NCBI RefSeq assembly: GCF_900114745.1
Contig: NZ_FOUB01000014.1
Span: forward strand, 1-64,000
DNA: 64,000 bases
Direction: 5' to 3'
Origin: Nitrosomonas communis
Lineage (GTDB): Bacteria > Pseudomonadota > Gammaproteobacteria > Burkholderiales > Nitrosomonadaceae
The notes below the pieces were generated by a model. It was not told the DNA's origin and did no database searches. It saw nothing but the letters and a program-made list of their open reading frames with translations. The position numbers and the translations under genes are program-made. Positions 7,065 through 22,276 of this stretch are shown one piece after another; the stretch's first letter is position 1; every line of letters starts with the position of its first letter.

Positions 7065-7687
7065 AATGAGGATGAGTAAAAAGCGCACACAATACTCGAG
7101 TGAATTCAAAGCAAAACTAGCGCTGGAAGCAATACGTGGCGATGAAACTGTCACAAATTAATTAGCAGCGCGCTATAATGTACATCCAACACAGATCAAT
7201 AGCTGAAAACGGCAGCTCATTGAGCAAGCTGCCGAGTTATTTTCTAAAGATAATACTGCCTCTAATAAGCAGCGACATACAACAGATGACCTGCACCGGG
7301 TTATTGGTCAATTGACGGTAGAACGCGATTTTTTAGCGAGAAAGCTCAATCATTAATTCTTGTAGAACGCAAAGAGATGATTGAGCCCCATGGAAGTCTT
7401 AGTCAGGTTCGTCAATGCCAATTGTTGAATCTGGCACGTTCTACCTATTACTATCAACCGCAACTGATCAGTAATGCTGATCTCGTTCTGTTGCGTATGA
7501 TGGATGAGCAATACCTGAAAACACTAAAATCAGGCTCACGCAGTTATGCTACCTGGTTTCAGCGCCAGGACATCATGTTAGGGCGCAAGAAAGCTTCTTC
7601 CTTAATGAAAACACTCGGTATTGTCAGCATAGCTCCAAAACCCAGGACCAGCATCTCAAGCAAACAGCATAAGGTTTATCTCTATTT
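7065..7687 (+). mobile_element. IS3-family remnant (orfA with stops, orfB truncated)
   Basis: From ATG 7065 an orfA-type reading (KRTQYSSEFKAKLALEAIRG) is typical of IS3 helix-turn-helix proteins. It carries in-frame stops: TAA within the helix-turn-helix region and TGA where Trp is expected in Q-I-N-S-W-K. The orfB reading starts at 7377 with the HTH_21-like block (CQLLNLARSTYYYQP) and breaks off at 7687, where an IS982 copy is inserted. The DDE domain is missing. Not functional. Confidence 0.75.
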
Positions 7688-8601
7688 AACGTGAGTTCGA
7701 CATAAAGATCACGCTACCACAGCTGGGAGAGCTTGAGGGAGTCTGATATTAAGCGAGGGTTTCTTCTCGCGAAAGGTGTAAGCCACCAGCCCGGCTATCA
7801 GATTAACAAAAAAAGTTAACTGGGCTGCGATGACGTGAATGCTCGATTTGCGAGATATTCTTCAATTGGTCATTGACGCTCTCAATGATCGTGCGTTTAC
7901 GTAACAGAATTTTGTCAAACAGCGGCAACAGCTTGTTTTTCATGTTCTTGCGTACCCTGGTAGCAAGCTGCTCGCTTTGCTCCCAAAGTTGCTCAAAGAG
8001 CGGCTGCGAGAGGTGGCTTCAGTCATTAAAGAGTTTCCCAAACGAAGAGCGCGCCAGTTCCGGTAACGAATCACGATCATCAATATTAGCCGCCGTGATT
8101 TTTTATTGCCAATAATTCCCCTTGATCATTGGTAACTAAGTGTAGCTTGAACCCATAAAACCAATCTGCACTGGCCGAGCAGCAAACTCTGCCATTACTT
8201 TATGCGACGCAATGCGGTGATTGTGACACATACTGATCTTGATTAAATCAATGAAGCTGATCCTACTGCATTGCCCAAAGCGGCTGATTAGAAAATTAGC
8301 ACAAAGGCACCAGATTACCTCGCAATAGCTCAACAAAGCGGTTGTAGCTCACCAGCCCTGGAAAATAACACCGCTGATACCTCAACACATAATTCAGGTA
8401 ATAATGTTGAAACGTCCCGTGACCGGACAGATGGAATCCCACCATGATGCTCATGACTTCACTTAGACACAGTTCCCCTTGTCAATTACGCCCTTTTAGT
8501 GATGACTCCGACCTCTTTAATGATGAAACTCTTTTTGAAAGTGCTTTCACCATGAAGAATTCAGATTTCTTTTGCTACCTTTCTTATGTCGAACTCACGT
8601 T
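7688..8601 (-). mobile_element. IS982-family insertion sequence, decayed transposase, intact ends
   Basis: The left end AACGTGAGTTCGACATAA (7688-7705) is repeated inverted at 8584-8601. Both ends are flanked by the direct repeat ATTT (7684-7687 and 8602-8605), a target duplication. The 914-bp length fits IS982. The minus strand carries an IS982 transposase reading in pieces, best near the end (frames reading [25 protein letters not shown]), broken by stops and frameshifts. It inserted into the IS3 orfB remnant. The transposase is dead, but the ends could still be mobilised in trans. Confidence 0.75.
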
Positions 8602-9803: not shown

Positions 9804-11660
9804 ATGAAAAAACACGATTCCCAGCATCACATAGGATTGTTTTGGGTGATTATGTTGAGCATTTTCTGGCTTGTGGCAGCCACTTCCATCAATGCTCAGA
9901 CCGTGACTAATCCTGGCCAAGGTCAAGGCAATGACATTAGTCAAGGTAAAAATGAGAATACTGCTCATCCAGGTAAAGGTAATAAAAATAGTAGCAAACA
10001 CGATTTGGAAAACATTCGGAATCTGGGAATAGTGCCTTCTCCTCCGCGGCCACCAAAAACAAAACCAGACGAACCTAAAAAACCTCAAAAAGTTGTGCCA
10101 GCTGAAGATACGATTAGAGGTGCTCAGTCTCTAGGCTTGGATTTACCAGGCAACCAGGCATCACTGATGACTACTCTTGCCGAAGTCCCAAACAACTCAG
10201 TTAACACCCTGATTCTCTATGACACCAGTGGACAGTGGGGTTTTCTAGGTGAGCTCTACGCTCAGATGGCTGCCAACCTTGTGTCCCATTTCGGGACCTG
10301 GCAGGCGCATCCGGTAGGCACGTACACGGCTGGTGAGATGAACAGCTATAGTGCGGTGATTTACATCGGATCAACCTATGATGAACCCCTGCCTGCTGCC
10401 TTCCTTACTGACACGCTGGCCGGAACGACCCCGGTTATGTGGATGTATGACAATATCTGGCAGCTAACGGCATATTCCAGCAACTTCGAAGCGGCCTACG
10501 GATGGAATTGGGCTGGGTTCGATTTCAATCCGGTGGGGGCCATCAAATATAAACTGACCGATCTGACCCGAAACACGACAAACCAGGGAGGGATGATGAC
10601 CTTTGCCAGTGCCGATCCAGCTCGGGTTCAGGTTCCAGCGCTGGCATTGAGAGCGGATGGAACCAGCTTTCCCTGGGCGGTGCGTTCCTTGAATTTAACT
10701 TATATCGGTGAGATTCCATTCGCATACATGGATCATAATGACCGCTATCTCGTTCTGGCTGACATGTTGTTCGATCTGTTGGCCCCTGCCACGGCCGAAC
10801 GGCATCGAGCATTGGTTAGAATCGAAGATGTGGGGCCTGATGCTGATCCCCAGGAGCTTAGACAGATTGCCCAGGCGCTGTCTAATCGCAAAGTTCCGTT
10901 TGCGGTGGCTGTGTATACCCGTTACGAAGACCCTCATGGCGTATTAAATAACGGCGTGCCTGAGGCCTTCAATCTTGCGGACAGGCCCGATGTGGTCGAT
11001 GCTTTGAAATTCATGCAATCCAAGGGTGGCACCCTGCTTATGCACGGCTATACCCATCAGTTTGAAAACTTGAATAATCCTTACGATGGCGTGAGTGGGA
11101 ACGACTTTGAATTCTACACCGCCCACGTGGATGCCAATAATTCGGTTATCTATGACGGACCGGTACCAGGCGATTCCCAGGCGTGGGCAGCTAACCGTAT
11201 CGCTCTGTCTGAAGCGGCATTTAAAGCGGCCGGGTTGGCAGTTCCAACAATCTTTGAGTTTCCGCATTATGCCGGTTCGGTGGCCGACTACACGGCGGTA
11301 CAGGAGCGGTTTGGGATACGTTACGATCGTGGTTTGTATTTCCCGGGTAATCTCAGCCACCAACCTATCGACTACAGCCGGCTTGCTGGGCAGTTTTTCC
11401 CTTATCCCGTGAAAGATATATATGGCAGTGTGGTCATGCCAGAGAACCTCGGAAATATTGAACCTGAACCATTTAACAATCATCCGGCTCGACTTCCGAC
11501 AGATCTGCTTGCTACCGGTCGAGCCAACCTTGTCATTCGTGATGGATTTGCCAGCTTCTTCTACCACCCATATTTGGGGCAGCAAATGCTTATCCAAGTG
11601 GTGGACGGGCTCAAGCAGCAAGGCTACACATTTGTCACCGTAGATAGCCTCAAGCCATAG
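9804..11660 (+). CDS. DUF2334 polysaccharide deacetylase-like exported protein, copy A
   Basis: About 618 residues from ATG 9804, 5 nt after GGAGG (9794-9798); ATG 9801 is an alternative. A signal peptide (cleavage after I-N-A) precedes a Lys/Gly/Pro-rich low-complexity linker (about 35-95). The rest is a DUF2334 domain: R-I-E-D-V-G-P near 340, H-G-Y-T-H-Q near 414 (metal-binding His pair of the deacetylase fold), F-P-H-Y-A, and F-F-Y-H-P near 585. DUF2334 proteins are relatives of NodB-type carbohydrate deacetylases. It precedes a very similar paralogue and the wecB-nfrB-nfrA genes, which points to periplasmic trimming or deacetylation of the exported glycan. The reaction is inferred. Confidence 0.8.
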   Translation: MKKHDSQHHIGLFWVIMLSIFWLVAATSINAQTVTNPGQGQGNDISQGKNENTAHPGKGNKNSSKHDLENIRNLGIVPSPPRPPKTKPDEPKKPQKVVPAEDTIRGAQSLGLDLPGNQASLMTTLAEVPNNSVNTLILYDTSGQWGFLGELYAQMAANLVSHFGTWQAHPVGTYTAGEMNSYSAVIYIGSTYDEPLPAAFLTDTLAGTTPVMWMYDNIWQLTAYSSNFEAAYGWNWAGFDFNPVGAIKYKLTDLTRNTTNQGGMMTFASADPARVQVPALALRADGTSFPWAVRSLNLTYIGEIPFAYMDHNDRYLVLADMLFDLLAPATAERHRALVRIEDVGPDADPQELRQIAQALSNRKVPFAVAVYTRYEDPHGVLNNGVPEAFNLADRPDVVDALKFMQSKGGTLLMHGYTHQFENLNNPYDGVSGNDFEFYTAHVDANNSVIYDGPVPGDSQAWAANRIALSEAAFKAAGLAVPTIFEFPHYAGSVADYTAVQERFGIRYDRGLYFPGNLSHQPIDYSRLAGQFFPYPVKDIYGSVVMPENLGNIEPEPFNNHPARLPTDLLATGRANLVIRDGFASFFYHPYLGQQMLIQVVDGLKQQGYTFVTVDSLKP

Positions 11661-11680
11661 GAGCCAAAATCTTTATATAA

Positions 11681-11788
11681 AGACCTCTGCATAACTATGT
11701 TTCTAAAGTTTTTTTGTGTATGTGCTACTCATAAAATAACTTACTTAAAAATACTTAACTATCCAAAAAGCCAGTTATGCAGGGGTCT
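11681..11788. mobile_element. MITE-like element with inverted terminal repeats
   Basis: GACCTCTGCATAACT (11682-11696) is repeated inverted as AGTTATGCAGGGGTC (11773-11787), 14 of 15 positions matching. The element spans about 108 bp and carries no gene. The ends resemble those of IS5-type elements, so it may be a non-autonomous derivative. A target duplication is not clear. It lies between the two DUF2334 paralogues, directly at the leader of the second. Confidence 0.6.
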
Positions 11789-11812
11789 CATATATCAAAT
11801 ATGATAGATTTA

Positions 11813-13507
11813 ATGATGAAAAAACAAAATTTTCTGTATCGCTCAGGGTTGTTTTGGATGGTTATGTTGAGCATTTTCTGGCTTGTGGTTGCCACTTCCA
11901 TCAATGCTCAGACTGTGATTAATCCTGATCAAGAAAAAGTTGTGCCGGCTGAAGATACGCTTAGAGGTGCTCAGTCTCTAGGTTTGGATTTACCAGGCCA
12001 CCATACATCACTGATGACCAGGCTTGCCGAAGCCCCGAACAATCCGGTAAACGTCCTGATTCTGTATGATACTAGCGGACCCGAGGGTTTCTTAGGTGAA
12101 CTATACGCTCAGATGACTGCCAACCTTGTGTCCCATTTCGGGACATGGCAGGCTCATCCGGTCGGTGCATACACGGCCGGAGAGATGAGCAGTTATAGCG
12201 CAGTGATTTATATCGGATCAACCTTAAACGAACCCCTGCCCGCTGCCTTTCTTACTGACACGCTGGCTGGCACGACCCAGGTTGTATGGATGTCTAACAA
12301 TATCTCGCAGTTATCGGCATATTCCAGTGATTTCCAGGGAGTCTACGGATGGAGCTGGGCCGGGTTCGACTTCGGTCCGGTCGGGACCGTCAAATATAAA
12401 CAGACCGATCTGACCCGAGACACGACAAATCCGAGGGGGATTATGACCTTCGCCAATGTTGATCCAACTCGGGTTCAAATTCTGGCCATGGCGTTTAGAA
12501 CGGATGGGAGCAGCTTTCCCTGGGCGGTACATTCCTTGAATTTAAGTTATATCGGAGAGATTCCATTCGCATTCATGGATCATAATGACCGCTATCTCGT
12601 TCTGGCCGACTTGTTGTTCGACCTGCTGGCCCCTGCTACGGTCGAACGGCATCGAGCACTTGTTAGAATCGAAGACGTGGGGCCTGATGCTGATCCCCAG
12701 GAACTAAGGACGATTGCCGAGGAGTTGTCTAATCGCAGCGTTCCGTTTGCGGTGGCCGTCTATCCTCGTTATGAAAACCCAAATGGCATAAATAACAATG
12801 GCGTGCCTGAAGCCTACAATCTTGCTGAAAAGCCCGATGTGGTCGATGCTTTGAAATTTATGTTATCCAAAGGCGGCATCCTGCTTATGCACGGCTATAC
12901 ACATCAGTTTGAACACCTAAACAATCCCTACGATGGCGTGAGTTCGAACGACTTTGAATTCTACACCGCCCACGTGGATGCCAATAATTCGGTTATTTAT
13001 GACGGACCAGTACCAGGTGATTCCCAGGCTTGGGCCGCTAACCGTATCGCTCTGGCTGAAGCTGCATTTGTAGCGGCCGGGTTGCCCGTTCCGGAAATCT
13101 TTGAGTTTCCGCATTATGCTGGTTCCGTGCCCGACTATACGGCAGTACAGGAGCGGTTTGGGATACGCTATGATCGCGGTTTGTACTTCCCGGGTTACCT
13201 CAGTCACCAGCCCATCGACTACAACCAGTTTGCTGGGCAGTTTTTCCCTTATGTAGTCAAAGATGTATATGGCAGTTGGGTTGCTCCAGAGAACCTCGGA
13301 AATATCCAATCTGAATCATATAATAATCACCCGACTCGATCTCCGGCAGATCTGCTTGCTACCGCTCGAGCCAATCTTGTCGTTCGCGATGGATTTGCCA
13401 GCTTCTTCTACCATCCAAAGCTGGGGAAGGATATGCTTATTGAAGTGGTGGACGGGATCAAGCAACTAGGCTACACATTTGTCACTCTAGCCAGCCTTAA
13501 ACCATAG
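11813..13507 (+). CDS. DUF2334 polysaccharide deacetylase-like exported protein, copy B
   Basis: About 564 residues, strongly similar to copy A throughout the DUF2334 domain (same R-I-E-D-V-G-P, H-G-Y-T-H-Q and F-F-Y-H-P blocks) but lacking the low-complexity linker after the signal peptide. The most likely start is the ATG pair at 11813/11816, matching M-M-K-K in copy A. The leader CATATATCA is shared with copy A, but the GGAGG present there is missing here and a MITE-like element ends about 25 nt upstream. Translation may therefore be weak or coupled. The pair looks like a tandem duplication followed by divergence. Confidence 0.75.
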   Translation: MMKKQNFLYRSGLFWMVMLSIFWLVVATSINAQTVINPDQEKVVPAEDTLRGAQSLGLDLPGHHTSLMTRLAEAPNNPVNVLILYDTSGPEGFLGELYAQMTANLVSHFGTWQAHPVGAYTAGEMSSYSAVIYIGSTLNEPLPAAFLTDTLAGTTQVVWMSNNISQLSAYSSDFQGVYGWSWAGFDFGPVGTVKYKQTDLTRDTTNPRGIMTFANVDPTRVQILAMAFRTDGSSFPWAVHSLNLSYIGEIPFAFMDHNDRYLVLADLLFDLLAPATVERHRALVRIEDVGPDADPQELRTIAEELSNRSVPFAVAVYPRYENPNGINNNGVPEAYNLAEKPDVVDALKFMLSKGGILLMHGYTHQFEHLNNPYDGVSSNDFEFYTAHVDANNSVIYDGPVPGDSQAWAANRIALAEAAFVAAGLPVPEIFEFPHYAGSVPDYTAVQERFGIRYDRGLYFPGYLSHQPIDYNQFAGQFFPYVVKDVYGSWVAPENLGNIQSESYNNHPTRSPADLLATARANLVVRDGFASFFYHPKLGKDMLIEVVDGIKQLGYTFVTLASLKP

Positions 13508-13640
13508 GGGCTCAGCCCTTATCTCTGCCTTCTTAATAATATTGCTCACACGAATTTTACACATAAGGGTTGAGGAACGACTTGCGTAAAGTTGCGAAGA
13601 TTTTTTAGGCAAGAATTAATTAAAATTATCTGGAGAATCA

Positions 13641-14801
13641 ATGGTTAAAAAGAAAATAGCATTAATTATGGGGACACGTCCTGAAGCCATCAAAATGGCT
13701 CCTATCGTATATGCTCTTAAACAGCGATCCAATGATATTGATACTGTGGTAATTGCAACAGCCCAGCATCGGCAGATGCTTGATCAGGTTTTATCTTTGT
13801 TTAATATTGTTCCGGACATAGATCTAGATTTGATGAGGCCCAATCAGAGTTTGAATGATTTGACCTGCAGCGTGCTGCAATTGATGCAAAAAACTCTTGA
13901 AGATGTAAAGCTGGATTTGTTGATGGTTCAAGGGGATACAACCACTGTCTTCGCAGCTTCAGTGGCAGCATTTTATCTAAAAATACCTGTTGCACATGTT
14001 GAAGCAGGATTGCGCAGTCATGATTTGTACAACCCATTTCCGGAGGAAGCAAATCGTCGGCTAACTTCTGTATTGGCTCAAATTCATTTAGCACCTACTC
14101 CATTAGCAAAAGAGAAATTATTGAATGAAGGTGCCAACGAAGAAAATATTTTTGTGACGGGGAATACAGTGGTTGATGCCATGTCAACACTGCTTGACGT
14201 ACCATTCTCCTTTCAAGGTTCTCCTATCGAAAATTTACCTCTGAGTCAGCACCGGGTCATTTTAGTAACGTCACATAGAAGAGAGTCGCACGGGGAAGAT
14301 CTCAAGAATACTTGCTTGGCGTTAAAAGAAATCGTTCAACGTTTTCAAGATGTCATGGTCATTTATCCCGTTCATTTAAACCCAAATGTCAGGAAAACGG
14401 TTATGGAAATTCTGTCTGATGTTGAACGTATCGCATTGACAGAACCGGTTGATTACCTGTGTTTCTTGAACTTGATGCGAAATGCTTATCTCATTGTTAC
14501 CGATTCTGGTGGTGTTCAGGAAGAGGCACCGACACTTAAAAAGCCGCTATTAGTATTAAGAAAACTGACAGAAAGACCAGAAGCTTTTAACGCAGGGTTA
14601 TCAAAAATTATCGGTACATCAACACAAAAAATTGTTGATGAAATCAGCCTGTTATTAACTGATGACAAGGCATATCAAGCAATGATTGGCATTAATCCAT
14701 TTGGTGATGGAAAAGCGTCCGAACGAATCGCTGAATTGGTCTGCAGATGGGCAAAAAATCAAAAGCCTCTATTGCCATCTGAGAATGAGTTTAAAGGCTG
14801 A
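13641..14801 (+). CDS. wecB: UDP-N-acetylglucosamine 2-epimerase (non-hydrolysing)
   Basis: 386 residues, normal length for WecB/MnaA. It starts with MGTRPEAIKMAP, followed by the QGDTTTV block, H-V-E-A-G-L-R-S, P-E-E-A-N-R-R and, near the end, D-S-G-G-V-Q-E-E-A-P; all are diagnostic of the family. It interconverts UDP-GlcNAc and UDP-ManNAc in the cytoplasm. A GGAG site precedes the ATG. The following glycosyltransferase begins 37 nt after its stop, so WecB most likely supplies UDP-ManNAc to the NfrB-like synthase. Confidence 0.92.
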   Translation: MVKKKIALIMGTRPEAIKMAPIVYALKQRSNDIDTVVIATAQHRQMLDQVLSLFNIVPDIDLDLMRPNQSLNDLTCSVLQLMQKTLEDVKLDLLMVQGDTTTVFAASVAAFYLKIPVAHVEAGLRSHDLYNPFPEEANRRLTSVLAQIHLAPTPLAKEKLLNEGANEENIFVTGNTVVDAMSTLLDVPFSFQGSPIENLPLSQHRVILVTSHRRESHGEDLKNTCLALKEIVQRFQDVMVIYPVHLNPNVRKTVMEILSDVERIALTEPVDYLCFLNLMRNAYLIVTDSGGVQEEAPTLKKPLLVLRKLTERPEAFNAGLSKIIGTSTQKIVDEISLLLTDDKAYQAMIGINPFGDGKASERIAELVCRWAKNQKPLLPSENEFKG

Positions 14802-14838
14802 ACTATAACATAATATTTATAAGAGGTTTTATATAAAA

Positions 14839-16458
14839 ATGGATAATATTCCTTATCTTCTCGTTGTCATGCAAATGTTGATGGCATTTGTATGTATTGT
14901 TTTTTTTATTAGTGGCCTTGATGATCTGTTCATTGATTTATATTTCTGGGTTAGGCGTTTTTATCGCAAATTTTTTGTGATGACAAAATATCAGCCATTA
15001 ACAGAACAGCAGATATTAGATAAGCCGGAACAATTTATTGCCATTATGCTGCCAGCCTGGGATGAGTCGGCAGTTATCGGTCAGATGCTTAGGAACACGA
15101 TCAAGTCCATCAACTACACTAATTATCATATTTTTGTTGGGGTTTACCCAAATGATCCGAAAACCAGAGCAGAAGTTGAGAAAGTCATGGTTGAAAGTGA
15201 ACATGTTCATCTTTGCATCACGGGAGATGATGGGCCGACCAACAAGGCGGATTGCCTTAACTGGATTTGTAATGGAATCAGAAAATTTGAGCAAAAAAAT
15301 AATATTGAATTTGCCTGCTATATCATGCAGGACTGTGAAGATGTAATACATCCATTATGTTACAAACTGTTTAATTATTTGTTCCCAAAAGCAGATATGG
15401 TGCAACTGCCAGTATTATCATTACCCCGTAAATGGTATGAATTTACTGGTGCACACTATCAAGACGAATTTGCTCAACTGCATTACAAAGATTTACCAGT
15501 GAGAGAATCTATTACTAGGAGCATTCCAGCGGCTGGCGTTGGTGTTGCTTTTAGCCGGAAAGCTATTAATGTTGTTGCCAATAATAATAATAATCAGATT
15601 TTTAGTACCAATTCTCTAACAGAGGACTATGATTTCGGATTCAAGCTCAGAGAATATAATTTAAAACAAATGTTTGTCCGTTTGTTTGTGGATAGAACCA
15701 TAACCAAGAAGTCTCTTATTACAGGAAAAAAGAAGCAAGTTAAAGTTAAGGAGTTGGTTTGTATCAAAGAATTCTTTCCAAACATTTTTTGGGCTTCAGT
15801 GCGGCAAAAATCACGGTGGGTGCTCGGTATAGGTTTGCAAGGCTGGGCGAATTTGGGATGGAAAGGACCATTATCCATCAAATATATTTTGTATCGGGAT
15901 CGGAAAGCTCTTATAACTAATTTAATTAATTTACTCGGTTATATTATTGTCTTGGTTGTTGTCTCAATCTGGATAATAATCAGTTTGGATCCCAATTCTT
16001 ACCAATACCCTCCCTTGGTCGAGGAAGGGACATTTTTATGGTACCTGATTGCAATCAATGCTTTTTTTCTGGTGCTTAGAATTTTTCACCGGGGCTACTG
16101 TGTTAAGCAACTTCATGGTTGGACTCAGGCTTTTCTTTCTTTTCCAAGAATGGTGTGGGGCAATGTGATTAATTTTTTTGCGACTACCAGGGCTTTGTCA
16201 CAATATATGACGTATTTAAGAACCAAAAAAACAATTGGCTGGGATAAAACTGATCATGTTTATCCAGAAGATAATGCTCTGAATGTATTTAAACCGAAAT
16301 TAGGAGAGTTCTTGGTTGGCGCAGGAATTATTACAAAAGAGCAGCTAGATAATGCGTTAACAAAGCAAATAGAACAGCCTCGCTTATTAGGTGACCTTTT
16401 GAGTGAGCTGGGATATGTACAAAAAGTTCAGCTGGAATCGATCATTGAAAATATGTAA
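14839..16458 (+). CDS. nfrB: NfrB-like processive glycosyltransferase with C-terminal MshEN domain
   Basis: 539 residues. An N-terminal membrane segment (about 5-30) is followed by a family-2 glycosyltransferase domain with all processive-synthase motifs: D-D near 130-134, Q-D-C-E-D (about 164-168), T-E-D (about 261) and Q-K-S-R-W (about 322). Further membrane segments lie at about 355-385 and 400-415. The last 53 residues (487-539) form two 24-residue repeats of the type L-G-x-x-L-x-x-x-G separated by five residues, the exact layout of the MshEN cyclic-di-GMP-binding domain. In E. coli NfrB is a cyclic-di-GMP-activated exopolysaccharide synthase needed for phage N4 adsorption. The protein is shorter than E. 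coli NfrB. Confidence 0.85.
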   Translation: MDNIPYLLVVMQMLMAFVCIVFFISGLDDLFIDLYFWVRRFYRKFFVMTKYQPLTEQQILDKPEQFIAIMLPAWDESAVIGQMLRNTIKSINYTNYHIFVGVYPNDPKTRAEVEKVMVESEHVHLCITGDDGPTNKADCLNWICNGIRKFEQKNNIEFACYIMQDCEDVIHPLCYKLFNYLFPKADMVQLPVLSLPRKWYEFTGAHYQDEFAQLHYKDLPVRESITRSIPAAGVGVAFSRKAINVVANNNNNQIFSTNSLTEDYDFGFKLREYNLKQMFVRLFVDRTITKKSLITGKKKQVKVKELVCIKEFFPNIFWASVRQKSRWVLGIGLQGWANLGWKGPLSIKYILYRDRKALITNLINLLGYIIVLVVVSIWIIISLDPNSYQYPPLVEEGTFLWYLIAINAFFLVLRIFHRGYCVKQLHGWTQAFLSFPRMVWGNVINFFATTRALSQYMTYLRTKKTIGWDKTDHVYPEDNALNVFKPKLGEFLVGAGIITKEQLDNALTKQIEQPRLLGDLLSELGYVQKVQLESIIENM

Positions 16459-16734
16459 CCAAATTTTATTACTCGTATTAAAGAAGATGATGCAAAGATA
16501 GGATTTATACTTGCTAAACCATAGAATGATGCGTTTGGTCTGATTTCAGTGAGAAGCATATTTACAAGTGCATGATATTTCATCTGGAAGGTGAAAGCGT
16601 GGCCCGACAAAATGATTTGTTGAGCATTGTCCTAAAACGCAGCAGTTCATGATAGCAACACGGAAGCAGGGAATATATAGCAATTTTTACTTGATCAAAT
16701 GTTGGCAACTAAAGATGTGAGAGAAGGATGAGGG

Positions 16735-19700
16735 ATGATATTGACATGGGTATTGAAATTAAAATTAAGGTTATTTTTAACTGCAATAGGAAGCTTGATG
16801 TTCATACTGGTGATATTTACCAGTCATGCTGCTGATCCAGCATTGAGTCAAAATAAACAAGATTATTATTTGGATAAAATAATCATACAACGATCTGAGC
16901 GTTATTTAGAACCAGCAATACGAAAATTTCGTAGTTTTCCACATTTGGATAAAGCCTATCGTTTAATGGATGAAAATAAATATCCTGAATCCAAGATCGA
17001 GTTTCAGAAATTCTTTGAAATCGATCCATTGGATATTAAAGCAAGAATGGCTTATGTCATTATGCTATATAGAATCAAAGAATATCAGGAGGTAATTCAA
17101 CAAGCGAGCCTAGCATTAAAACAAATTGGCAATAGTGTGCCATTCCTTCTATACCGTGCTTTAGCTCATAATGCCATTGGAAATAATGAGCAAGCGCTAA
17201 AGGATTTTAGCTCAATAATCACAAGTAATGATGTTCTGGAGGAAGATAAAATATTTGCACTGGATATGTCTTTAATTATCTCACTAGAGCAAAAAGCATA
17301 TCTACAATCTTTGACTTTTCTTGACCAATATCCAGTTGAAAAAAAAGACTTTAATTATTATATGCGCTATGCAATAGCAAGAGAAGGTTTAGGTGAATTT
17401 GATTTGGCTAGGGAAATGCTTGATAAGGCTTTACTACATTCAAAAGCAAAGAATGAATCTATAAAGGTCTATATGGCGTTAGGTAACCTTTATAAAAAAA
17501 GCAAAAGGCCTGATTTAGCAGAAAGCGCATATCAAGCTGCCTTAGCAATTGGCGGAGAAAAATCTGAGATATTGCGGCCATTAGCTTATATATATTATGA
17601 TTTGGGTCGTCTGGATAAAGCCATTGATATGATAAATGTGCTTTTAAAGCAGCGGTATAATAATAATGATCAAGAACTTCTGGCCAACCTTTTTTTTGCA
17701 AATAAAAATTATTTATCCTCAGCAAGAGCATATGAAACATTACTCTTGAATCAGACACAGGAATCAGATTTATATCGTACTTATAGGTTGATAGGTCATG
17801 CCTATAGTAATGCAAAGCAGTATGACATGGCAGCTAAAGCTTTCCAGCATGCTGCGGAAATAAAACAATCCGATGAAGTTATGCAATCTTTGGTCAATAC
17901 ACTAGAGAATAAAGGCGATGTTGGCAAAGCAATCAAGGTCTATCGCGAGTGGTTAAATAAAGAAAAAAGCGCAGAAGGATATATTAGATTAAGTAATCTT
18001 TATAGCAGTTCTGGCGATATCGATAAAGCTTTGCAGTCATTAGTGTTAGCACTTCAATCTGGCGCATCTAAAGAACAGCAGAAAACAGTGTACCGAACTC
18101 AAGGTGAATTGCTTTACCAGCAAAAAAAATATGCAGAGGCTAAAGTTGCATTTCAAAAAGCAGCAAAAATTGATTTAGCTGATACAGGATTAGCAGCAAA
18201 AATTGATTCAGCTGATCTGGAATTACTGAATTCATCGGCTATGACAAGTTTAAAAACAGGTCACTTAGAAGAAGCTTCAGACACTTTAAAGAAAAGTCTG
18301 AAAATAAAGGAATCGGTTCATACCTTGTTTATGCTGGCTGAAGTTGAAAAAAGTCTAGGAAACTGGGAGAAGTCAGCTGAAATATATCGCCATTTAATTC
18401 AGCTTAATGATTTAAATTCAAAACAAAAAAGCGATGTGTTAACAAATCTGGGGTTGTTGTATCTCGACCGAGGGCAAGAGCAACCGGCACTTGATTATCT
18501 AAGAGCAGCAGCTTCTATGGATGAGCAAAACTGGGTAAGCAACCGAATCCTGGGTAATGCGTATGCCCGTTTTGATCGGTGGGATGAAGCGCTTGTACAG
18601 TATCGGTCTGCATTATCAAAACAAAACAATTTGGAAAATCTGTTGAACTTTGCCCAAGCCAATGGCAAGCTGAATAAAAACGATATTGCTACTGATTATT
18701 TTCAGCGAGCAATGAAGCAAGCAGATAAAGATGGCGTTAACTCCGAGGATAAAAAAACAGTTCTTGATACATTTGGCTATTTTTTAGCGAATCAAAAGGA
18801 ATATGAACAGGCCGCAGAGAAATGGCGGCAATCTTTGCGAATCAAAGATGATCCGGTTATCAGAATGCGGCTGGCTATGCTGCTTGGTACTGAATTTGAT
18901 GATGATCAATCTTTAAGCGAATTAGAGACAATTGATAGCAATAGCTTATCTAAAGAGCTGAATGCTGAACGATATGATTTTATTGCTCAACAGTATGCAA
19001 AAAGAAAACAGTTTTCAAACGCAATTAGTGCTCAGATAAAAGCGCTTGATTTTATAGAAACAGCAGAGCGGCACTATATGTTGGGAAATTATTTTCAGTC
19101 AAATAAGCAGAATAAAGAAGCGCTTGAACAGTTTAAGCTTGCTGTTGATAAATCTCCAGATAATACATTCTTTGTAACTGCATTAGGCTATGCTTATTTA
19201 AATAATGATCAACCTGATCAGAGTATGCAGATGTTTGAAAATGTCGTAGAGAAAGATCCTAAAAACTTTGGCTTGCATAAAGAACTGGCTTACCTTAGTC
19301 TGAGAAATTCAGATAATGAAGCAAGTAAGTATTGGTTTAAACAAGCCATTGATGTCAAGACTGAACAATTAGGCGGTAGTCAGGTTGATGTAGTTAACAG
19401 AGATAATGAACTTGCCAATTTAAGAAGAGAAGTGAGGGAGTTAGAGGATAATTTTAATTTTACTGTTTATTCTGGCTATAGACAAAACAATAATACTGTA
19501 AACCCAACTGGAGCTGCGGGGACTCTTGGTGGGGTTATTCCTTCCCAAGGTGGGGTTGAACTGAATTATCGACCACCTGTTATCGGATTGCGTGACGGAC
19601 GAACCTTCACATTGTTTTCGCGTTTGCTCTGGTCTATGGAGCCTGATTCTTTTAAAGTCGATTCAGAAACTTTTCAGTCTACTGTTGGAATCAGGTATAA

Positions 19701-20169
19701 GCCTTTTATAACGCACAATTTTAATATAAGTGCAGAAAAACTAATCAAGATTGGAGATAGTTCCCAGAATAACTGGTTGATTAGAGGAATGTATGGCTGG
19801 ACAAATGGATTTGACATCAATTTCGGGAAACAATACTGGAACTACACCACTTTATTTGCCGACTTAGGTTATTTTGTTGAATCTCCTAGTATATTGAGTT
19901 TCTTTGGTGAGGCCCGCCAAGGAATCAGTTATAACTTATGGAACAACATCGTTTTAACACCACACGCAGTGATTGATGGTCGAATTCAGACAAAAGATCA
20001 GAGTAACGTGTCTTATTTAGAAGCTGGCGGTGGATTATCGTTGAAGTATTACTTTAATCAAACCAGATACTCAGCTCCTAAATCTTATATTGAATTTTTA
20101 TTTCAGTATAAAGCGGGTATTGTAAATATTGAAAGTGGTTTTAATGCGATGGGGATTTTCCGATATTAA
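16735..20169 (+). CDS. nfrA: NfrA-like outer-membrane TPR and beta-barrel protein
   Basis: 1144 residues with a signal peptide (cleavage near S-H-A-A/D, about 33). Residues of roughly 60-880 are tandem TPR helices (many copies of the pattern L-G-x-x-Y ... A-x-x-x-F-x-x-A). A short coiled coil (LRREVRELEDN) leads into about 240 C-terminal residues of alternating beta strands ending in Phe-Arg-Tyr, typical of an outer-membrane barrel and of the NfrA C-terminal domain. In E. coli NfrA is the outer-membrane partner of NfrB and the N4 receptor. Likely role: export of the glycan. It is 276 nt downstream of nfrB and may have its own promoter. Confidence 0.82.
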   Translation: MILTWVLKLKLRLFLTAIGSLMFILVIFTSHAADPALSQNKQDYYLDKIIIQRSERYLEPAIRKFRSFPHLDKAYRLMDENKYPESKIEFQKFFEIDPLDIKARMAYVIMLYRIKEYQEVIQQASLALKQIGNSVPFLLYRALAHNAIGNNEQALKDFSSIITSNDVLEEDKIFALDMSLIISLEQKAYLQSLTFLDQYPVEKKDFNYYMRYAIAREGLGEFDLAREMLDKALLHSKAKNESIKVYMALGNLYKKSKRPDLAESAYQAALAIGGEKSEILRPLAYIYYDLGRLDKAIDMINVLLKQRYNNNDQELLANLFFANKNYLSSARAYETLLLNQTQESDLYRTYRLIGHAYSNAKQYDMAAKAFQHAAEIKQSDEVMQSLVNTLENKGDVGKAIKVYREWLNKEKSAEGYIRLSNLYSSSGDIDKALQSLVLALQSGASKEQQKTVYRTQGELLYQQKKYAEAKVAFQKAAKIDLADTGLAAKIDSADLELLNSSAMTSLKTGHLEEASDTLKKSLKIKESVHTLFMLAEVEKSLGNWEKSAEIYRHLIQLNDLNSKQKSDVLTNLGLLYLDRGQEQPALDYLRAAASMDEQNWVSNRILGNAYARFDRWDEALVQYRSALSKQNNLENLLNFAQANGKLNKNDIATDYFQRAMKQADKDGVNSEDKKTVLDTFGYFLANQKEYEQAAEKWRQSLRIKDDPVIRMRLAMLLGTEFDDDQSLSELETIDSNSLSKELNAERYDFIAQQYAKRKQFSNAISAQIKALDFIETAERHYMLGNYFQSNKQNKEALEQFKLAVDKSPDNTFFVTALGYAYLNNDQPDQSMQMFENVVEKDPKNFGLHKELAYLSLRNSDNEASKYWFKQAIDVKTEQLGGSQVDVVNRDNELANLRREVRELEDNFNFTVYSGYRQNNNTVNPTGAAGTLGGVIPSQGGVELNYRPPVIGLRDGRTFTLFSRLLWSMEPDSFKVDSETFQSTVGIRYKPFITHNFNISAEKLIKIGDSSQNNWLIRGMYGWTNGFDINFGKQYWNYTTLFADLGYFVESPSILSFFGEARQGISYNLWNNIVLTPHAVIDGRIQTKDQSNVSYLEAGGGLSLKYYFNQTRYSAPKSYIEFLFQYKAGIVNIESGFNAMGIFRY

Positions 20170-20192
20170 TTCCTATATCTAGGAGTTATAGA

Positions 20193-21269
20193 ATGAAACG
20201 CTTTTCCTGGGTATGGATAGGTTGTTGGATGATAATAATGATTAGTAGCAGTCGGGCGCTTTTTTCAAAAGAACCCGAACCAATTCATCCAATTCGAGGG
20301 ACGTTTATTCAGCTTTATGAAGACTCACATGGACAATGGGATAAAAATGAGTGGGTAATTTTTTTTTCGTATCTGAAAAAGCTAAAGATATCTAATTTAT
20401 ACTTGCAATGGACGGTTGAAGAGACATACGCTTTTTTTCCCAGTAATTCGTTTCAGCCTGTCGAGTTTCCTCCATTGGAAACTATTTTAAAATTCGCCGA
20501 GCAGCTTGATATAAAAATTAATATCGGTTTAGTGTACGATGACAAATATTGGAATCAGATTACTAAAAATCCACATCGAGTGAAGGTCTATTTGGACGGG
20601 TTGTTGAATCGTTCTATATTAGCTGCTGAGCAAATCGCCCCAATCGCCAAAAAATATAAATCATTTAATGGTTGGTATATTACCGAAGAAGTCGATGATA
20701 TTAACTGGAGACATGGCAAAAGAAAACTTCTGTTTGCTTATTTAGGACAATTAAGTAGCGCGTTAGAGAAACTGACACCTGGCTATCAAATTGCAATTTC
20801 AGGATTTTGTAACGGGCAAATTAAGATGGCAGAATTTAAAAAATTTTGGGATCAATTGTTTGAGCGAACAAGAATTAATTTGGCTTTGTTTCAGGACGGG
20901 ATCGGGGTGAATAAATTGACTTTATCCGAGTTACCTGATTATCTTGCGGCTTTTAAGCAGTCTGCAATTGATAATCAGAGGGAAATAGGCGTGATTGTTG
21001 AAATTTTTCGTCAAACGGATGGTCATCCAATCAATGAAAATTCATTCCAAGCGGTTCCTGCAGATTTATCTAGAATCAACCAGCAGCGTCAACTAGCCAG
21101 TAAGTTTACACAGAATATAATTGCTTTTAGCATCCCATCTTACATGATGCCGATAGCTGGTGATGCCGGAGAAGCTTTATATAACGGTTATCTGGCTGAT
21201 ATTGAAGAAAATACCAATTCCGATTTAAGACTGGAGACTATTCAGAAAGACCCCACCCAACCTCAGTAA
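20193..21269 (+). CDS. DUF4434 glycoside hydrolase-like exported protein
   Basis: 358 residues with an N-terminal signal or anchor segment. The core reads like a TIM-barrel hydrolase of the DUF4434 type: R-G-T-F-I-Q-L-Y at the first strand, N-L-Y-L-Q-W-T-V-E-E, then G-W-Y-I-T-E-E-V-D-D, where the Glu pair is a plausible catalytic site. It starts 23 nt after nfrA with AGGAG ahead of the ATG, so it is in the same operon. E. coli places ybcH after nfrA, and this gene occupies the same slot. Likely a periplasmic enzyme that cuts or trims the exported polymer; substrate not shown. Confidence 0.72.
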   Translation: MKRFSWVWIGCWMIIMISSSRALFSKEPEPIHPIRGTFIQLYEDSHGQWDKNEWVIFFSYLKKLKISNLYLQWTVEETYAFFPSNSFQPVEFPPLETILKFAEQLDIKINIGLVYDDKYWNQITKNPHRVKVYLDGLLNRSILAAEQIAPIAKKYKSFNGWYITEEVDDINWRHGKRKLLFAYLGQLSSALEKLTPGYQIAISGFCNGQIKMAEFKKFWDQLFERTRINLALFQDGIGVNKLTLSELPDYLAAFKQSAIDNQREIGVIVEIFRQTDGHPINENSFQAVPADLSRINQQRQLASKFTQNIIAFSIPSYMMPIAGDAGEALYNGYLADIEENTNSDLRLETIQKDPTQPQ

Positions 21270-21475: not shown

Positions 21476-22276
21476 ATGTTAAGACACCGTAAACGCTATA
21501 ATCAAACTCTAAGTCGCCCAATAATACTAATCAATAATCAATTAACTGAAGTAAAACTAATTGATATATGGCTACAGAGACTCAGCTATATCGCGCAGTT
21601 CGGTCTCTTTCTTCTGACAATCGGTACTATATATTTCACAGTAATACCCCTATATCAAAAAGCTCTTCTTGATGAAGCAATAGCCAAACAGGAGGTTAAG
21701 CTAAAGGAAACAAATGAAATACTTGAAAGAACATACGAGCGTCTTCGAACATATATTGTAAATAGTTTTGTTAGCTATGCCGGCATGAAATGTACCGGTC
21801 TTATCGATTCGTCAGATATTTTGCCAAATAAAACCGAAAAACCTAATACTAAAAAAATGCTTAATGAAGATAATTTATTTGAAATAGATATACCTACGTG
21901 TTTAATCAATGCTGCACATAATTTTTCCTCATTACAATATCTCCAGCCAGACGATCGAGTAACCCTTGAAGAAAAAATACATACATTAACTTTAAGTGGA
22001 GAATTGTCTTCTCTTAAACAACAAGTAATAACAGAATATGAAGAAGTTCCTAATCAAGCAGCTAAAAATTTTAGCGAGCTTAAACCACCTGATGGATTCC
22101 AGAAAAGAATGCTAGAAATTCTGGAAAAACTTCAATCACCTGAAGATTTTGATCGGAGTATCTACATTGCGACAATTGATTCTGAGAGACTTCGTATTAG
22201 AGCATCCTATCAAAAGAAAATTTTAGAATTGATTAATACATTAAGGATTTCTAAATTAGCAAAGGAAGAAAATTGA
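21476..22276 (+). CDS. Membrane protein with coiled coil, unknown function
   Basis: 266 residues. A single membrane segment (about 40-62) is followed by a long charged coiled coil (EAIAKQEVKLKETNEILERT) and a hydrophilic, mostly helical domain ending in K-L-A-K-E-E-N. The ATG at 21476 follows a GAAGGCGA site. It lies between the exopolysaccharide locus and the end of the prophage and belongs clearly to neither. No family is recognised. Confidence 0.65.
   Translation: MLRHRKRYNQTLSRPIILINNQLTEVKLIDIWLQRLSYIAQFGLFLLTIGTIYFTVIPLYQKALLDEAIAKQEVKLKETNEILERTYERLRTYIVNSFVSYAGMKCTGLIDSSDILPNKTEKPNTKKMLNEDNLFEIDIPTCLINAAHNFSSLQYLQPDDRVTLEEKIHTLTLSGELSSLKQQVITEYEEVPNQAAKNFSELKPPDGFQKRMLEILEKLQSPEDFDRSIYIATIDSERLRIRASYQKKILELINTLRISKLAKEEN

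Follow-up and report, generated by a model that had tools for sequence, protein, structure and literature searches.

A deacetylase-like DUF2334 protein as a probable add-on to an Nfr-type exopolysaccharide operon in Nitrosomonas communis

What do proteins of the uncharacterised Pfam family DUF2334 do in front of a gene set for an exopolysaccharide? The question is raised by positions 9804-21269 of the window, a 64,000-nucleotide stretch of Nitrosomonas communis DNA (contig NZ_FOUB01000014.1), in which six genes of the + strand follow one another in the order DUF2334-DUF2334-wecB-nfrB-nfrA-DUF4434, the last being ybcH-like. Our analysis suggests that this is probably an Nfr-type exopolysaccharide operon with an add-on, a secreted DUF2334 protein that would deacetylate a polymer based on N-acetylmannosamine (ManNAc) and controlled by cyclic di-GMP (c-di-GMP), a proposal built on sequence comparison and a structure model. 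We regard the locus as a known system with a new enzymatic add-on that recurs across phyla. The six genes, with their lengths in amino acids (aa) and the family models that recognise them, are as follows.

9804-11660, + strand: DUF2334 copy A, 618 aa; PF10096 at residues 335-602 (E 3.2e-51, 174.2 bits)
11777-13507, + strand: DUF2334 copy B, 576 aa; PF10096 (E 2e-51, 174.9 bits)
13641-14801, + strand: wecB, non-hydrolysing UDP-GlcNAc 2-epimerase for UDP-ManNAc supply, 386 aa; TIGR00236 (467.7 bits, cut-off 210.15)
14839-16458, + strand: nfrB-like membrane synthase of glycosyltransferase family 2 (GT2), 539 aa; NF012033 (638 bits, cut-off 537)
16735-20169, + strand: nfrA, 1144 aa; PF13283 (NfrA_C) at residues 977-1132 (E 1.6e-25), plus many tetratricopeptide repeat models
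20193-21269, + strand: DUF4434 gene, the ybcH counterpart, 358 aa; PF14488 (E 4.6e-50)

The original prediction, a wecB, nfrB-like, nfrA and DUF4434 locus preceded by two DUF2334 genes, is matched by the gene calls and by the family models, and the locus is confirmed as real. The gaps between neighbours measure, in order, 116, 133, 37, 276 and 23 bases. Curated cut-offs are passed by PF10096 (26 bits) for both DUF2334 copies, by the WecB, NfrA_C, DUF4434 and GT2 models, and by NF012033 and NF053729. The NfrB equivalog NF008411 (574.9 bits, cut-off 1170), the full-length NfrA model NF007302 (77.8 bits, cut-off 1223) and the YbcH model NF007404 (96.5 bits, cut-off 344) score the window proteins below theirs. 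In the assembly of the window genome (4.42 Mb, 195 contigs) this wecB is the sole match, with no second copy.

The locus holds the features of an Nfr system, namely an NfrB-type GT2, an MshEN-type motif, NfrA, WecB and a DUF4434 gene behind nfrA, the placement that ybcH has in E. coli K-12. With the E. coli Nfr system, also called the N4 glycan receptor (NGR) system, it shares the four functions of nfrB, nfrA, ybcH and wecB, the GT2 and MshEN-type motifs of NfrB and the ybcH counterpart; it differs in being preceded by a DUF2334 gene, or by two, and in having a shorter NfrB and wecB inside the operon. The GT2 active-site residues D165, E167-D168, T261-E262-D263, Q323 and R326-W327 (DxD, TED and QxxRW) are invariant in all ten aligned NfrBs. 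A complete MshEN domain had been ascribed to this protein; what stands is the minimal c-di-GMP motif NF053729 at residues 487-537 (48.6 bits, cut-off 38), whereas the Pfam MshEN model has no match in the window NfrB at E <= 0.01. The protein stops right behind this motif, and E. coli K-12 NfrB (gene at 590941-593178, 745 aa) is about 200 residues longer. The gap between nfrB and nfrA (16459-16734 in the window) is long and very variable across the genus, from 276 to 1166 bases.

Part of this arrangement is not new. The portion of PMC8669469 consulted already describes wecB linked to nfrB in other species, as well as nfrBA-ybcH as an operon, and wecB inside the operon was accordingly rejected as a novelty. 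The novelty first claimed for the locus, in which DUF4434 is the ybcH counterpart, is in this way narrowed to its DUF2334 part. DUF2334 as an Nfr partner was not found in the literature searched, where the family is named in a table row only and where other naming could hide reports; the word deacetylase is absent from the main text of PMC8669469. The claim that the polymer is also trimmed outside the cell finds little backing: the DUF4434 protein has one weak relative in the PDB, a putative alpha-L-fucosidase (2.7e-6), and E. coli YbcH is not required for N4 infection according to the same portion of PMC8669469. No glycosidase domain is found by Pfam in either window DUF2334 protein.

Predicted fold and conserved residues of the DUF2334 protein

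Copy A is composed, from N- to C-terminal, of a hydrophobic stretch, read by eye as a signal peptide, a Pro/Lys-rich linker, a Rossmann/ThuA-like half and the DUF2334 half. Copy B has no linker and is 82% identical to copy A across the shared part. A structure model (m85678eaa0151) of copy B residues 52-576 was obtained from an alignment of 55 diverse rows, with a mean predicted local distance difference test (pLDDT) score of 89.5; an earlier model from 8 close sequences (pLDDT 48.3) was left unused. Foldseek comparison of the model with the PDB placed deacetylases of carbohydrate esterase family 4 (CE4) on top (7fbw 2.6e-7, 3rxz 1.1e-6, PgdA 1.7e-6 and ArnD 1.5e-5), and the fold predicted for DUF2334 is thus the (beta/alpha) barrel of these deacetylases. 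The ThuA-like protein 4e5v is also among the matches (4.5e-4), and on the model we take it to correspond to the N-terminal half. A search of solved structures with a single DUF2334 sequence returned nothing useful (best E 1).

Conservation was read from alignment A3, in which 8 rows are from Nitrosomonas and the other 47 represent 43 of the 75 loci outside this genus that are described below. Residues E299-D300, H372, H376, P445-H446, D496 and H546 (copy B numbering) are identical in 55/55 rows. Among them, D300, H372 and H376 would be the metal-binding Asp and two His of CE4 type, an assignment made by sequence pattern. The motifs are intact in copy A, and E-D, HGYTHQ, PHY and the late His are retained in two distant DUF2334 copies from betaproteobacterial plasmids. 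The motif comparison excludes seven loci with ordinary DUF2334 from the order Burkholderiales, because the long-form profile recognises just one of them (13.5 bits). The predicted fold, the Asp-His-His set and the motif-5 His are those of CE4 polysaccharide deacetylases, and the deacetylase-like label first given to these proteins fits them.

Recurrence of the DUF2334 pairing

Within Nitrosomonas, 7 of 85 genomes hold a long DUF2334 and exactly these hold nfrB, an association that, with the adjacency described next, exceeds chance. DUF2334, wecB and nfrB are neighbours in all seven, with nfrA next and DUF4434 after it in six; in one of them (G007) the gene set is divided between two contigs. 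Close relatives of the DUF2334 genes come from N. communis (a metagenome-assembled genome), N. mobilis, N. ureae Nm13, Nitrosomonas sp. Nm84 and NMNS01. A single DUF2334 copy is usual: the tandem pair is present at the window locus, as predicted, but in only this one of the seven genomes. As a key feature the pair was rejected, other tandem pairs being found in five actinobacterial loci (L069, L081, L090, L098 and L102).

The pairing is also found outside the genus. In Acidobacteriota and Myxococcota, nfrB is carried by 2 of 149 and 10 of 188 genomes respectively, in samples built around genomes to which DUF2334 had first led (G473, G475 and G476). DUF2334 lies directly upstream of nfrB on the same strand, with gaps of 7-159 bases, in 3/3 acidobacterial and 9/12 myxococcal loci. 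Counted by genome, the two are linked in 2/2 and 7/10, or in 1/1 and 5/8 once the seeds are excluded. Seen from the other side, nfrB is the neighbour in 9 of the 13 DUF2334 loci of Myxococcota.

The DUF2334 alignment was then scanned over 84,980 species genomes, which yielded 310 relatives; the loci counts that follow are from the best 80 of the 310, comprising 5 from Nitrosomonas, 3 from Holophagaceae, 3 from Myxococcota and 69 from Actinobacteria. The fetched stretches contain wecB in 66/80 cases and nfrB in 11/80. Of the 75 non-Nitrosomonas loci, 54, all of them actinobacterial, have wecB immediately before DUF2334 and in the same orientation; a GT2 gene stands directly before wecB in 39 of these 54, and a homologous GT2 is found on the opposite strand in 14 more. 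This GT2 resembles PgaC/IcaA and the XrtP-associated glycosyltransferase, both below cut-off, and NfrB was not found in the 7 actinobacterial genomes searched. Judged by sequence, another GT2 appears to stand in for NfrB in the actinobacterial loci. A protein with a carbohydrate-binding module of family 2 (CBM2) and a region like glycoside hydrolase family 18 (GH18), the latter below cut-off, is often encoded downstream of the actinobacterial GT2-wecB-DUF2334 set (L062 12664-14229 and 16 other loci, cluster 5) and is a candidate chain-cutting partner. Second DUF2334 copies without wecB (L094 6866-8935 and 7 other loci, cluster 31; e.g. Dactylosporangium) are located near a gene for collagen triple-helix repeats.

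Of 72,556 plasmid records, 3 contain a DUF2334 relative. A Comamonadaceae plasmid carries the order wecB-nfrB-hypothetical-DUF2334-nfrA-DUF4434, with a divergent DUF2334 (33% identical) placed between nfrB and nfrA, and on a Streptomyces plasmid wecB and a GT2 gene are divergent from DUF2334. In phages, DUF2334 has no match at E 0.01 among 50,697 records, and a search of viral contigs gave no confirmed relative of NfrB.

Gene trees bear on how the two families came together. In the DUF2334 tree (63 rows, A3 plus 8 rows from Myxococcota and Acidobacteriota), the Nitrosomonas rows form the sister group of those from Acidobacteriota (99/94), and Frankia follows. The NfrB tree (35 rows) places Nitrosomonas with E. 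coli and some members of its order, separated (99/97) from Acidobacteriota and from those Myxococcota whose nfrB is linked to DUF2334; it omits G007 (two contigs), Sorangium L106 (internal TGA), L129 and L142 (partial), and L108 and L109 (duplicates of L120 and L119). The approximately unbiased (AU) test rejects both a common clade of the Nitrosomonas and Acidobacteriota NfrBs (p 0.0044) and a single clade of every DUF2334-linked NfrB (p 0.0115), values that are indicative, since the clades were picked after the trees had been seen and the Nitrosomonas NfrB rows have an odd letter make-up. The DUF2334 tree conflicts with the NfrB tree, and DUF2334 and nfrB therefore probably met more than once; such repeated pairing argues for a shared task rather than for drift. 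In the six loci measured, DUF2334 has 46-52% G+C and nfrB 36-39%, and the genes flanking the set vary by species and include transposase-like genes, therefore the set looks pieced together and mobile.

Proposed role of DUF2334 and competing readings

In the scheme that we favour, WecB would provide UDP-ManNAc, and NfrB would polymerise it across the inner membrane once c-di-GMP binds its terminal MshEN-type motif. NfrA would serve the passage of the chain through the outer membrane, with periplasmic assistance from the ybcH-like DUF4434 protein. The secreted DUF2334 protein, as a CE4-like, metal-dependent enzyme, would remove some of the N-acetyl groups once the chain is complete, and the outcome would be a partly cationic, surface-clinging polymannosamine. 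We infer this deacetylation step, outside the cytoplasm, from the fold, the residues, the signal sequence recognised by eye and the company of the genes.

Such a role has precedents. According to the portion of PMC6307706 consulted, PgaB, PelA and Agd3, which act on poly-N-acetylglucosamine (PNAG), Pel and galactosaminogalactan (GAG) respectively, deacetylate hexosamine polymers outside the cytoplasm and give cationic, cell-bound material. They differ from the window proteins in their sugars and sequence family, and PgaB and PelA combine deacetylase and hydrolase in one chain, whereas DUF2334 and DUF4434 are separate genes. By analogy, the closest functional precedent is the Listeria exopolysaccharide, described in the parts of the sources consulted as a c-di-GMP-controlled beta-1,4-ManNAc chain that requires PssB, termed a CE4-domain protein (PMC4817252, PMC4125290). 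The same partial sources report PssB to be necessary for the surface-bound polymer, so that the Pss system (pssA-E) shares with our scheme c-di-GMP control, a ManNAc chain and a deacetylase-type protein (PMC4817252, PMC6307706, PMC4125290). An IcaA-like GT2, a BcsB-like partner, the GGDEF receptor PssE and a Gram-positive host are features of its own. Listeria PssB and B. subtilis YdaL may themselves be DUF2334 proteins.

Several observations weigh against our proposal. To our knowledge, the Nfr polymer is known solely by E. coli genetics, through the need for WecB and NfrB. On the enzyme side, where CE4 enzymes have their catalytic-base Asp, Glu299 is present in 55/55 rows, and because of this Glu we consider the protein, as modelled, to be CE4-like rather than CE4. 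It belongs to its own Pfam family, all 55 members of A3 matching DUF2334 only and none of the CE4 Pfam models, and it has the extra Rossmann/ThuA-like half. Sequence profiles reach solved CE4 enzymes weakly (7ax7, E 0.017). The Foldseek match is confined to the deacetylase half (TM score by query 0.23-0.34), and some matches are other barrel-type folds, such as KDO8P synthase, with a haloviral turret protein in second place.

On the side of gene company, among 399 Burkholderiales genomes nfrB occurs in 16 and any DUF2334 in 27, and the two overlap in two Nitrosomonas only; no DUF2334 was found in the 14 nfrB loci belonging to its remaining genera, and wecB is inside the fetched stretch in 12 of them. 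Among 349 genomes drawn from across the phylum, that of the window is the only one with long-form DUF2334. Three of the 12 Myxococcota nfrB loci lack DUF2334 (their NfrB frames are unusually long, 935-1066 aa), 4 of the 13 Myxococcota DUF2334 loci stand beside neither nfrB nor wecB, one of them (L154) having lost metal-site residues, and 13 of the 75 non-Nitrosomonas loci have neither gene. The DUF2334 of a Burkholderia vietnamiensis plasmid has no nfrB or wecB in its stretch, and in the E. coli K-12 stretch read there is no DUF2334 beside nfrB. The linkage to nfrB elsewhere, on which the original prediction was said to depend, is seen in Acidobacteriota, in Myxococcota and on the Comamonadaceae plasmid, and as linkage to wecB and another GT2 in Actinobacteria, but not in the other genera of the order or in E. 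coli K-12.

It is unlikely that DUF2334 acts on the same polymer in some other way, as an O-acetyl esterase, as a lyase or hydrolase built on a deacetylase-like barrel, or as a binding protein for export or anchoring. Several of the top folds are indeed acetyl-xylan esterases (7fbw, 2c71), the CE4 base is replaced by Glu, and the nfr locus of Simplicispira suum contains an alginate-type acetyltransferase cluster (in the portion of PMC8669469 consulted), so that O-acetyl groups may occur on such polymers. The S. suum cluster is, like DUF2334, an extra gene set that would alter polymer acetylation, but it would add acetyl groups where the window locus has a deacetylase-like protein. However, no acetyltransferase gene is recognised between the window cassette genes, a ManNAc chain carries N-acetyl groups by construction, and the metal Asp-His-His and the motif-5 His are invariant in all rows, unlike in a decayed enzyme. 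Less probable still is a target near the machine other than the polymer, for example peptidoglycan, whose deacetylation would open the wall to the export complex: the fold matches do include peptidoglycan deacetylases (PgdA 2c1i, PdaC 6h8l), yet this reading would leave unexplained both the wecB link in Actinobacteria without NfrA (the 54 loci above) and the absence of DUF2334 from most nfr loci of the order. That DUF2334 is a chance or purely historical neighbour of unrelated function on a mobile island, as the base composition and the species-specific, transposase-bearing flanks could suggest, is very improbable given a pairing repeated in four phyla, in different gene orders, with two GT2 lineages and with conflicting trees.

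If polymer deacetylation is retained as the favoured role, the association of DUF2334 with WecB and NfrB in several phyla leads one to expect a chain of N-acetylated mannosamine from which some of the acetyl groups are removed. A Pfam family so far uncharacterised would thereby acquire a definite substrate that can be tested. Actinobacteria with the GT2-wecB-DUF2334 set would be pointed to as makers of a related polymer. A bolder extension, which we hold to be doubtful, is that WecB, a processive GT2 and long-form DUF2334 form one portable module in Actinobacteria, Acidobacteriota, Myxococcota and Betaproteobacteria, making partly de-N-acetylated poly-mannosamine as a cationic exopolysaccharide class alongside PNAG, Pel and GAG. 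The enzyme of nfr operons would then also rewrite the glycan bound by N4-like phages with deacetylase tailspikes, self-deacetylation hiding the receptor. That such tailspikes exist is stated in the portion of PMC8669472 consulted, where phage tailspikes are the subject of the sole mention of deacetyl-, and if deacetylation masks the glycan it could offer a way round phages that attack it by such means.

Surroundings of the gene set

Upstream of the cassette, the window contains an IS3-type transposase fragment (7377-7694) and, by eye, a UmuC-like gene seemingly broken over three frames (318-1675) beside a UmuD-like open reading frame (ORF) at 70-360. Behind the DUF4434 gene, positions 21476-22276 encode a 266-aa protein (unk266) with one hydrophobic stretch, a coiled-coil look and no Pfam family; it was rejected as a cassette member, as no relative stands beside DUF4434 at the other loci of the genus. 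From 22512 to about 58000, the - strand carries phage-like genes, among them genes for lysis and tail-like proteins, with a G+C content above that of the nfr genes, as judged by eye from the ORF list and composition. On the Burkholderia vietnamiensis plasmid, diguanylate cyclase genes are found on either side of DUF2334 (L155 6582-7880 and 16143-17375).

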